Assembly: GCA_021821045.1 (NCBI GenBank)
Contig: JAKACW010000027.1
Location: 1-57,244 of the forward strand
Origin: Pseudomonadota bacterium
Lineage (GTDB): Bacteria; Pseudomonadota; Gammaproteobacteria; JAADHS01
Length of the DNA stretch: 57,244 nt
Direction of reading: 5' to 3'
The position numbers and the translations under genes are program-made. Each line of letters begins with the position of its first letter. The first letter of the stretch is position 1. Under the pieces are notes generated by a model, which worked only from the letters and a program-made list of their open reading frames with translations, did no database searches and had not been told where the DNA came from. Below, piece by piece: positions 3,530 to 32,747 of this stretch.

Positions 3530-3560
3530 TTGTAGCGTTTGTGAAAAACACGTGTATAGT
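3530..3560 (+). promoter_or_regulatory. Probable promoter of the cold-shock gene, with a long leader
   Basis: A TATAGT -10 element lies at 3555-3560, with a weak -35 candidate TTGTAG at 3530-3535 (19-bp gap) or TAGCGT (16-bp gap). The predicted start near 3567 gives an untranslated leader of about 125 nt before the GTG start codon. Long leaders are known for cspA-type genes, where they act as RNA thermosensors. The gap 3358-3691 is AT-rich and holds no other gene. Confidence 0.45.
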
Positions 3561-3691
3561 ATTGACGTTGCAGTTAAGTTCTTGTAGGTAGATCGGAAGT
3601 TCCTCAGAGTGATTTGGGTGCCCCTCCAGCAGTATCTCACGCAGGACTCAGCTGCATAGTTTGCGTTAATTAATTGAACAGAGGTATTTCC

Positions 3692-3895
3692 GTGATTACA
3701 GGAACAGTAAAGTGGTTTAACGATTCTAAAGGCTTCGGCTTCATCACCCCGCAGGATGGTAGCAAGGATGTATTCGTACATCACTCCGCGATCGTCGGCT
3801 CGGGCTTCAAATCTTTGGCCGAAGGTCAAAAGGTGGAGTTCGATGTGCAGCAGGGTCAGAAAGGTCCGTCAGCCGTAAACGTACGGGCGCTGTAA
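3692..3895 (+). CDS. Cold-shock protein, CspA family
   Basis: This 67-residue single cold-shock domain is an RNA/DNA chaperone of the cytoplasm. It begins [10 protein letters not shown], then RNP1 (KGFGFI, residues 13-18) and RNP2 (VFVHH, residues 27-31), which are the aromatic nucleic-acid-binding strands. It ends at SAVNVRAL, the normal end of the domain. I chose the GTG at 3692 because GAGG lies seven bases upstream and the protein then starts as CspA proteins do; a TTG 18 bases upstream would only add a tail. The gene is monocistronic: a long leader precedes it and a strong terminator follows. Whether it is cold-induced or constitutive cannot be told. Confidence 0.95.
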
Positions 3896-3927
3896 GTCTT
3901 TCGCTCTGCGTATGCAGATTAAGTAAG

Positions 3928-3955
3928 AGCCCCGCGGAAATGCGGGGCTTTTTTT
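3928..3955 (+). terminator. Rho-independent terminator of the cold-shock gene
   Basis: A perfect 8-bp stem AGCCCCGC/GCGGGGCT with loop GGAAAT is followed by a run of T ending at 3955. It lies 33 bases after the stop codon. Confidence 0.95.
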
Positions 3956-12233: not shown

Positions 12234-13568
12234 CTATCGCTCGAGCAGACGGACCGGGCGTTCCACGTCCAGCCGGAACCGCCCCCGTCCCGTCTTGGTG
12301 ATATGCAAAAAGGGGCATTTTTCGGTCAGGCGCTTTTGCAGCAAGATGAGTCGCGCTTCCAGGTTGTCGCTCAAGTCGGGCAGGCCGAGGGACGGATCGA
12401 GCCGCAGCTCGCGGTTGGAAAATTCGCAGCGCTGGTCTTTGACGTGGTCGTGTAGCACTTTCCAGAAGATGGCGCCGGCGACACCTTTGATGAGGTACTC
12501 GTCGCCTATGAAAATGCTGTGGTTGGCCGCGTAGTGGCTGATCGACACCGGTGCGCCTGCGGTGACCGCGCGGCCGCTGATTTGAACCGGTTGGCACGTG
12601 GCGTCGGCGGCGCACTGGTTGAAGTCGATGGCGATAGCCAATTGATTGGCGATGGCCGTCAACGCGTCTTCGTCTTCGTGGGTAAAGCGCATGTCGTCGT
12701 CGCTTTCGACGTACAAGACGCCCAGCGTCTCGTTGCCGCGTACGATGGGCACCGCCAACTGGCTGCGCGGTGCGGGCAAGCCGGGAAAGGGGATCTGAGT
12801 CTCGAACGCCAGAGCGGGGTCGCCCTCGGCCAGACTCTTGCGCACCGCCAAGTTATAGGTGAATTCACTGGCCAGGTGGCCGATGCGAATGGGCGTGCGC
12901 TCGCGCGCCGCGACGCCAATCAGGCCCGCGCCGAGGGGTACTTCCGATCCGACGCCGGAGCGTTCATAGCCGCGGCTGGCGACGGTGAACAACCGCCCGC
13001 CTTGTTTGTCGAGCATGAGCAGCATGCTGTGGTCGAAGCCGAAATGGGTTTCGAGGCCTTCCAGCGCGTTGGTCAGCAATTCGTCCAAGTCTATGGCGCC
13101 GTTGATCAAGGCGCTGCTGCGGCGCAACGCCGTCAAGCGATTGCGCTGTGATTTGTTGAACAGGGGCGCCCCGGTGGGAACGACTTCCACACCCAGCACC
13201 CGGTAGATGTCCGAACCCAGCAGTTTGAACACCTTGCTCATGCCGGTGTGGGAGGCGATGGCGGCGAGTTTCGCGCGCATGCTTTCGAACACCGGCCCTT
13301 CCGTCTCGGTGCGCAGGTACTGCAGCGATAATCGGAAGTGCGCGCCGTTGTCGGGATGGACGAGCTGAACTTCGGCGAACGGGTTGGCCAGAATGTTGGC
13401 GCGGGTCTTGTTGAAGAATTGAAACGACAATGCGACGTGGTTTTCGTCAAGATAATGCACATGTGACAGCAGCGCGATATTGGGCGTACCGTCGACGGCG
13501 CAGGTGGCGATGGCTGAGGGAATGCAGCCTTCGAAGCAGTCGCGAATGGAGTCGAGGCGAATCGTCAC
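12234..13568 (-). CDS. Split-barrel (pyridoxamine oxidase-like) - GAF - winged-helix-like sensor protein
   Basis: This 444-residue cytoplasmic protein has three parts. Residues 1-135 form an FMN-binding split-barrel of the pyridoxamine phosphate oxidase type (AIATCAVDGTPNIALLSHVHYLDENHVAL, NPFAEVQLVHP). Residues about 160-320 are a GAF domain (LEGLETHFGFDHSMLLMLD, VPLGAGLIGVAARERTPIRIG, QLAVPIVRGNETLGVLYVES). The C-terminal 100 residues contain a helix-rich module ending LHITKTGRGRFRLDVERPVRLLER that resembles a winged-helix DNA-binding end. The start is GTG, one base after the stop of the upstream split-barrel gene. I infer a redox- or flavin-responsive regulator; no target is known. Confidence 0.75.
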   Translation of the reverse strand: MTIRLDSIRDCFEGCIPSAIATCAVDGTPNIALLSHVHYLDENHVALSFQFFNKTRANILANPFAEVQLVHPDNGAHFRLSLQYLRTETEGPVFESMRAKLAAIASHTGMSKVFKLLGSDIYRVLGVEVVPTGAPLFNKSQRNRLTALRRSSALINGAIDLDELLTNALEGLETHFGFDHSMLLMLDKQGGRLFTVASRGYERSGVGSEVPLGAGLIGVAARERTPIRIGHLASEFTYNLAVRKSLAEGDPALAFETQIPFPGLPAPRSQLAVPIVRGNETLGVLYVESDDDMRFTHEDEDALTAIANQLAIAIDFNQCAADATCQPVQISGRAVTAGAPVSISHYAANHSIFIGDEYLIKGVAGAIFWKVLHDHVKDQRCEFSNRELRLDPSLGLPDLSDNLEARLILLQKRLTEKCPFLHITKTGRGRFRLDVERPVRLLER

Positions 13569-17282: not shown

Positions 17283-17492
17283 GGTAATCCCCCCTTCTTT
17301 TGTTTTGGTCCGACCGCAGGCGACAGTTATAAGAGCAACTGCGGCGGGAAGTCCAGCGGGTAGAGCGCAATGCTGAGTAGGTAAAGTCCGCGGAGGCGGC
17401 CTGTTCGTTGATACCTTGAGGGGTGTTTGGGCAGCGGCCGCCCGTGGGAAGGTGGCCGCTGTTGCCCGGTGTTCGTCGTCTACGGGGTCGAG

Positions 17493-17684
17493 CTATTGAA
17501 AATCCCGATCTTTGACGGTCTTGCGCTTGTCGTTGCGGGCGTTTTCGATGGCTTGATCGCACATGGCCCGAATTTTGTCGGAAAGGATTTCAAAAACGTT
17601 CGCCGAGGTATTCATTTCAGACTTTTCGCGAATGTAGTTTTTGATTTTCGAAGCAACGACCAAGACTTCCTTTTCGTCGGACAT
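17493..17684 (-). CDS. Bacterial histone-fold protein (DUF1931-like, minimal histone)
   Basis: The 63-residue product reads as a single histone fold. Helix 1 is VVASKIKNYIREK (about 9-21), the long helix 2 is SANVFEILSDKIRAM to about residue 51, and the second loop carries RKTVKDRD at 54-61. This keeps the RxTxxxxD motif of archaeal histones (Arg54, Thr56, Asp61), the Arg-Asp clamp of the fold. The chain stops two residues later, so helix 3 is almost absent, as in short bacterial histones such as that of Bdellovibrio. The ATG at 17684 has GGAG seven bases upstream; a longer frame lacks one. I infer a DNA-binding dimer. It is monocistronic. Confidence 0.82.
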   Translation of the reverse strand: MSDEKEVLVVASKIKNYIREKSEMNTSANVFEILSDKIRAMCDQAIENARNDKRKTVKDRDFQ

Positions 17685-17750
17685 TTTGTTCTCCAAATTT
17701 GTAGCGAAAATAACCCGGCAAGCTGGTACACGCCCGAAGGCGCGACTACG

Positions 17751-22973: not shown

Positions 22974-23065
22974 GGAGAGGTGCCTGAGCGGTCGAAAGGG
23001 CTTGACTCGAAATCAAGTGACTCCTTTATTGGGGTCCCAGGGTTCGAATCCCTGCCTCTCCGCCA
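22974..23065 (+). tRNA. tRNA-Ser(CGA)
   Basis: The acceptor stem GGAGAGG pairs with CCTCTCC. The anticodon stem CTTGA/TCAAG encloses loop CTCGAAA, giving anticodon CGA (codon UCG). The long variable arm (GACTCC/GGGGTC) is that of a serine tRNA, the T arm contains GGTTCGAATCC, and the discriminator G and CCA are encoded. The last 16 bases including two after the CCA recur at 23893-23908, on the far side of the toxin-antitoxin pair. Confidence 0.98.
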
Positions 23066-23192
23066 TTATGGATTGCGTGCCTCGATTTGTTCCACTTGTT
23101 TCCGCAAGCCCTCCCGTAAAAGCAGTCGATTGCCGGGTATTTTTTAGACTCTTAAGGGAAAACCGTCGGCACTTGCGGCGCTTCCCTGGGCC

Positions 23193-23208
23193 GTACCAAA
23201 AATGGTAC
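23193..23208. promoter_or_regulatory. Palindromic operator before higB
   Basis: A perfect inverted repeat GTACCA-AAAA-TGGTAC lies 11 bases upstream of the toxin start. Antitoxins of the HigA type bind such palindromes to repress their own operon; binding here is inferred. Confidence 0.6.
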
Positions 23209-23219
23209 AGTTTCCCGCA

Positions 23220-23558
23220 ATGACGCCGATACTCCAAGTGCGCTTCTTTCGTACCACTCAAGGTAGCGAACCGGTTCGTGAGTGGCTTAGGTCGCTTGGT
23301 GTCTCGGATCGAAAGATCATCGGCGAAGATATCAAGACTGTGCAGTTCGGGTGGCCACTGGGTATGCCAGTCGTGCGTAAACTGGGGCCGAACCTTTGGG
23401 AAGTGCGCAGCCATACGACGGACGGAATTGCACGCACGCTGTTTACCGTGCTTGACCATGCGATGGTGCTCTTGCACGGATTTGTGAAAAAGAGCCAAAA
23501 GACTCCAGCCACCGAGTTAGATACCGCAAAGCGGCGATTAAAACAGTTGAGGAGCTAG
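23220..23558 (+). CDS. higB: HigB-like toxin (Gp49/RelE superfamily)
   Basis: The 112-residue product has the Gp49-like (PF05973) pattern: EPVREWLRSLGVSDR, the helix IGEDIKTVQFGWPLG, then LWEVRSHTTDGIARTLFTV and MVLLHGFVKKSQKTP. The Arg, Lys and His residues of the last strands are those used by RelE-fold mRNA endonucleases on the ribosome. The ATG at 23220 follows a palindromic operator; the earlier ATG at 23202 lies inside it. The antitoxin starts three bases after the stop, in the reversed toxin-first order that marks higBA systems. Confidence 0.9.
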   Translation: MTPILQVRFFRTTQGSEPVREWLRSLGVSDRKIIGEDIKTVQFGWPLGMPVVRKLGPNLWEVRSHTTDGIARTLFTVLDHAMVLLHGFVKKSQKTPATELDTAKRRLKQLRS

Positions 23559-23561
23559 ATT

Positions 23562-23852
23562 ATGGCGAAACGACATCTCGGAAGCGATTTCGACGCTTTT
23601 TTGTCCGATGAGGGCTTACTGGAAGATGCGATCGCGATCGCAGTGAAGCGTGTAATCGCCTGGCAATTGGCCGAAGAAATGAAAGCACAGCACCTTACCA
23701 AGCAAGCGATGGCGAACAAGATGCACACGAGCCGCGTGGCATTGAATCGGCTGCTCGACGAAACGGATACAAGCGTAACCTTGACCACATTGGCGCGCGC
23801 AGCGTCAGTCCTTGGCAAAAGAATCAGTTTTCAGCTTGAAGACGCCGCCTGA
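23562..23852 (+). CDS. higA: HigA-like antitoxin, helix-turn-helix (XRE family)
   Basis: This 96-residue protein has a helix-turn-helix of the XRE/Cro type in its second half: MKAQHLTKQAMANKMHTSRVALNRLL, then TVTLTTLARAASVLGKRISFQL-type sequence, the usual end of HigA antitoxins of phage-like Gp49 pairs. It neutralises HigB and represses the operon through the upstream palindrome (inference from the family). It is coupled to the toxin gene by a three-base gap. The 347 bases after it hold the tRNA-end repeat and a CRP-like site but no gene. Confidence 0.9.
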   Translation: MAKRHLGSDFDAFLSDEGLLEDAIAIAVKRVIAWQLAEEMKAQHLTKQAMANKMHTSRVALNRLLDETDTSVTLTTLARAASVLGKRISFQLEDAA

Positions 23853-32635: not shown

Positions 32636-32747
32636 GGCGGCTCACGTTGGTCTCCCAGCAACGTTATGTTGTGAACCCCGTCAGGTCCGGAAGGAAGCAG
32701 CGGTAGCAGCGGATACGGGTGCTGGGGTTAGGCGGGCGTGGGTCGCC
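32636..32747 (+). ncRNA. ffs: Signal recognition particle RNA (4.5S RNA)
   Basis: The conserved SRP core GTCAGGTCCGGAAGGAAGCAGC lies at 32680-32701, with the GGAA tetraloop and the symmetric loop that binds Ffh. The ends pair: GGCGGCTCACG near the 5' end with CGTGGGTCGCC at the 3' end (with G-U pairs), and CCCAGCA with TGCTGGG inside. The length of about 112 nt is that of the small bacterial type without Alu domain. The exact ends are inferred from pairing. Confidence 0.93.

Follow-up and report, generated by a model that had tools for sequence, protein, structure and literature searches.

To our knowledge, Bdellovibrio and Leptospira are the only bacteria whose histones have been studied in depth. 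The alpha3 histones, in which helix 3 spans just 3-4 residues and helix 2 is shortened, are divided into "bacterial dimers" of the HBb type and face-to-face (FtF) tetramers (Schwab et al., PMC11390915). HBb (Bd0055) of Bdellovibrio bacteriovorus, whose DNA-contact residues have been described, bends DNA by 84 degrees over 36 bp in simulations (PMC11317129), and HLp of Leptospira perolatii is a tetramer formed through R49, S52, N53 and R55 (PMC12701072). The HBb-type histone is already known and has been described mainly outside the Gammaproteobacteria; less known are its presence in this class and a fused doublet in a related order, both of which are described here. A literature search of limited coverage for gammaproteobacterial histones found none, a result that is no proof of novelty.

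The window analysed here (the whole stretch of 57,244 nucleotides) carries a histone gene of 63 codons plus a stop codon on the minus strand, with its ATG at 17684 and its stop at 17493-17495: MSDEKEVLVVASKIKNYIREKSEMNTSANVFEILSDKIRAMCDQAIENARNDKRKTVKDRDFQ. The first-pass annotation had described a 63-residue histone at this position without stating the strand; the frame is real, and its strand is minus. Reading the same interval on the + strand gives an unrelated frame (LLKIPIFDG...) with no histone, which was rejected. A longer in-frame GTG start (88 aa) is less likely, as the ATG has the better ribosome-binding site, agreeing with the good site claimed earlier, and the starts of relatives lie at about the same place. 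The description of the gene as standing alone is roughly right: the upstream neighbour is a divergent membrane-protein-like gene, and a Pyr_redox_2 flavoprotein gene on the same strand starts 210 bp downstream. A G+C-rich hairpin between the histone and flavoprotein genes may mark the point where the transcript ends or is processed; no terminator was detected on the histone strand in a scan. The histone gene is present in a single copy in its genome, which also contains three HU/IHF-family genes. The coordinates of the features are collected in Table 1.

Table 1. Features of the window histone gene and of the fused histone doublets found in a related order.
Feature	Location	Strand	Basis or remarks
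Histone gene (bacterial-dimer / HBb-type alpha3 histone)	17493..17684	-	Sequence, profile and structure matches
Ribosome-binding site GGAG, 6 bases 5' of ATG	17691..17694	-	TTTGGAGAACAAAATG
Helix 1, residues 2-22	17619..17681	-	Model; carries S12, K13, K15, R19
Helix 2, residues 28-51 (24 residues)	17532..17603	-	Model; dimer-interface equivalents L34, I38, M41
Loop 2 RKTVKDRD, residues 54-61	17502..17525	-	R54-D61 clamp; alignment
One-turn helix 3, residues 59-62	17499..17510	-	Model
G+C-rich hairpin 3' of histone stop, no T run	17432..17461	-	Stable fold, z -1.9
Histone doublet, 126 aa, linker about NSDTGSHDP	L010 1303-1680	-	Sequence
Histone doublet, 126 aa, linker about NSDTGSHDP	L011 1306-1683	-	Sequence

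Elsewhere in the window, a tRNA-Ser (cga) is closely followed by a HigB-like / HTH pair (23202-23558 and 23562-23852, both +; whole region 22974-23852), which, judged by eye from the translations, looks like a putative toxin-antitoxin pair beside a tRNA. Rfam matches in the window are a cspA thermoregulator leader at 3556-3955 (just above the cut-off) and a small SRP RNA at 32645-32741. Positions 12234-13568 (-) encode a 444-residue chain whose N-terminus weakly resembles PNPOx and which also contains a GAF domain.

The gene is real and conserved to a degree beyond chance. Comparison with eight relatives gave pN/pS values of 0.13-0.23, indicating purifying selection on the protein, and relatives with 71-82% identity occur in other families of the same class. 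In 39 aligned sequences, R54, K55, T56, R60 and D61 are invariant.

When the PDB was searched by phmmer with the single sequence, the best match was HBb/Bd0055 (8cmp, 8fvx; E-value: 5e-13), followed by Leptospira HLp (9qt0; 5e-9) and the archaeal FtF histone HTkC (9f2c; 3e-4), with other archaeal histones matching weakly. A 39-sequence profile gave E-values of 4.7e-25 for HBb, 4.8e-13 for HLp, 6.4e-10 for HTkC and 0.006 for archaeal HMfB, and its 12 best matches were all histones. The AlphaFold2 model made from 39 aligned sequences has a pLDDT of 90 and three helices (Table 1); following Foldseek comparison, HBb structures ranked first (TM 0.80-0.83, 48-49% identity), then HLp (TM 0.79-0.80), HTkC and other histones. 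These results bear out the histone fold proposed in the first-pass annotation, the intact RxTxxxxD (RD) clamp, in which R54, T56 and D61 do not vary, and the near-absence of helix 3, reduced to a single turn in the model. When a non-histone fold and a coiled-coil family were considered, the evidence pointed to neither. The DUF1931 (PF09123) profile did not match the window protein, which has a single domain and not two folds, and a search of PHROGs gave a best E-value of only 0.09. PF00808 is the commonest weak match in the family (35/39). The window protein scores 18.1 bits with this model (cut-off 21.4) and 24.3 with NCBIfam NF043032 (cut-off 50), such that annotation by these models would miss it.

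In addition to the three-helix fold with its one-turn helix 3 and a helix 2 of 24 residues, the protein has the RKTxxxxD motif (as RKTVKDRD) and the helix-1 lysines, with K13 and K15 invariant and position 19 occupied by R or K in 39/39 sequences. Eight of the ten DNA contacts of HBb (PMC11317129) are identical (S12, K13, K15, N25, S27, K55, T56 and R60) and two are altered (T8 to A and K16 to R). Specifically, S12, K13, K15 and R19 of helix 1 correspond to S9, K10, K12 and K16 of HBb, while K55, T56 and R60 correspond to its K52, T53 and R57; the clamp residues R54 and D61 and the supporting D52 are also kept. Because these contacts and the clamp are retained and the tetramer residues of HLp are absent, the window protein belongs to the published "bacterial dimer" group of alpha3-truncated histones, typified by HBb; this group was defined by sequence clustering (a CLANS map), and membership here means that HBb is the best match in both PDB sequence searches. 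The short helix 3 is the defining trait of the alpha3 family and no peculiarity of this protein, which is no new type of minimal histone.

By analogy with HBb, the protein probably acts as a homodimer that bends DNA non-specifically beside HU/IHF, and the sequence, profile and structure comparisons agree with the non-wrapping dimer suggested in the first-pass annotation. Two chains would pair head-to-tail through helix 2, and, at the minor grooves, the dimer would clasp the DNA backbone by means of its two L1-L2 loop ends (N25, S27, K55, T56 and R60), with the start of helix 1 (S12, K13, K15 and R19) adding to this grip. The result would be a bend without sequence preference. As helix 3 is only one turn long, it should not provide the four-helix bundle needed for hypernucleosome stacking, and the histone would serve as one nucleoid protein among others, together with HU/IHF. 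HBb's behaviour may carry over incompletely, however, since the window protein is nearer to a second Bdellovibrio histone (60% identity) than to Bd0055 (51%).

Three other readings were weighed against this dimer. A tetrameric FtF histone wrapping about 60 bp of DNA, as in Leptospira, would suit the rank of HLp as the second-best solved relative by both sequence and fold, and the helix 3 of HLp is equally short (PMC12701072). Nonetheless, R49 and N53, which are conserved in FtF tetramers (PMC12701072), are replaced by N48 and D52 in the window protein (with D or E at the latter position in 39/39 sequences), and HBb scores about 38 bits above HLp in the 39-sequence profile search, leaving a tetramer very unlikely. 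It is also unlikely, if a little less so, that the protein has kept the histone fold while no longer organising DNA, and instead mediates protein-protein interactions, as has been suggested for DUF1931 double histones. The charge of the protein is near neutral (13 K+R and 12 D+E; pI 7.9, compared to 9.3 for HBb) and its N-terminus is acidic, both of which would fit a role away from DNA, and the genome already has its three HU/IHF genes; yet most of HBb's DNA contacts are identical, K13, K15, K55, T56 and R60 are invariant in the 39 sequences and DUF1931 is not matched. The acidity of the N-terminus noted earlier is present but mild, and the segment is partly helical in the model. Given the lower net charge, DNA affinity may be weaker than that of HBb.

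The third reading, in which the frame is open by chance or encodes an unrelated protein of coiled-coil type, has next to no probability. It could draw on an AlphaFold model made from the single sequence without an alignment, which is a helical hairpin of low pTM (0.42), but that model was discarded as under-informed, and this reading is already refuted by the homology, by the purifying selection and by the model built on the alignment.

Among 84,980 genomes in a species-level collection, at least 294 relatives were found, and the best 80 of these include members of the Gammaproteobacteria, Bdellovibrionota, Myxococcota, Planctomycetota, Nitrospirota and Latescibacterota and one Spirochaeta MAG. 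Within the class, 11/369 sampled genomes carry the histone, representing six families including the window's own, and in one gammaproteobacterial order the histone is found in 15/20 genomes. The genes beside the singlet histones of this order are, as we take them from sequence to be, fabA and fabB. They lie there across genera of the order (L100-L106, L014, L016, L017, L018 and L024) with no obvious functional link.

In the window genome, the fabA of this order is on a different contig from the histone, indicating that the histone sits elsewhere in the genome. Both of the same-family genomes searched (2/2) lack the histone. GC3 of the gene is 0.60, compared to 0.75-0.80 in its neighbours, and a tree of 90 short sequences, which is mostly unresolved, groups the window protein, at weak support (83/88), with histones from the fabA-linked order. 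HBb forms a divergent branch in the histone tree. Based on the different location, the absence from two same-family genomes, the GC3 and the tree grouping, horizontal gain from a relative of the fabA-linked order is favoured and may be the origin of the gene; loss elsewhere combined with relocation is a possible alternative. A phage or plasmid origin is without support, as no relative turned up in searches of plasmids, phages or IMG/VR viral contigs. It was not possible to draw an empty site, because the neighbouring P0003 is unmatched in genomes G001-G003 and G002 matches the flavoprotein at no more than 44%.

In one genus of the fabA-linked gammaproteobacterial order, two HBb-type domains are joined in one chain, with RRKTVMDRD in each half. 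Both domains lie in one open frame in seven genomes (L010, L011, L107, L108, L109, L110 and L111). The first domain of L111 (genome G383) is without the usual start, and the halves in L112 (genome G380) are in different frames, which may reflect a broken gene or an assembly frameshift. The doublet matches PF00808 and HBb but not DUF1931. In its available text, a review of double histones names only DUF1931-type bacterial doublets, which are without DNA-binding residues (PMC13088155, 2026); the doublet described here, unlike those, appears to keep these residues in both halves. On balance, we lean towards the view that HBb-type histones are established in some gammaproteobacterial nucleoids beside HU/IHF and that one genus has evolved a tandem that retains its DNA residues. 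With such a natural single-chain doublet, the dimer model could be tested without further engineering. The presence of a plain histone type in several gammaproteobacterial families, and its persistence in one order, places histones beside HU/IHF in the best-studied bacterial class, where the contribution of a histone to a nucleoid that already has the classical proteins can be addressed directly.

Among known histones, archaeal nucleosomal HMfB shares the RxTxxxxD motif and the fold (TM 0.65; E = 1 by single-sequence search), but its helix 3 is of full length, and the window protein has neither this helix nor a score above the archaeal profile cut-off. The ZZ histones of Proteobacteria (PMC11390915) carry an N-terminal ZZ zinc finger, which is absent from the 63 residues of the window protein with their single cysteine. 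HLp (FtF; PDB 9QT0-9QT2) has the same fold, RD clamp and one-turn helix 3, with 41% identity, but differs in being a tetramer. HBb (PDB 8CMP, 8FVX, 9EZZ and 9F0E) shares the single histone fold, shortened helix 2 and one-turn helix 3, the RD clamp with its extra Asp and the S-K motif at the start of helix 1, and both proteins are without FtF tetramerisation residues; the window protein differs in its lower pI, the two altered contacts, a three-residue acidic N-terminal extension and its gammaproteobacterial host. Closer still is the second Bdellovibrio histone, compared here from the Bdellovibrio bacteriovorus kdesi genome (L086/L118) and probably Bd3044 of PMC10627809. This little-studied protein extends further at the N-terminus, giving a total length of up to about 91 residues, and has the SK-K-YI and DGRKTV-DRDF blocks in common with the window protein.
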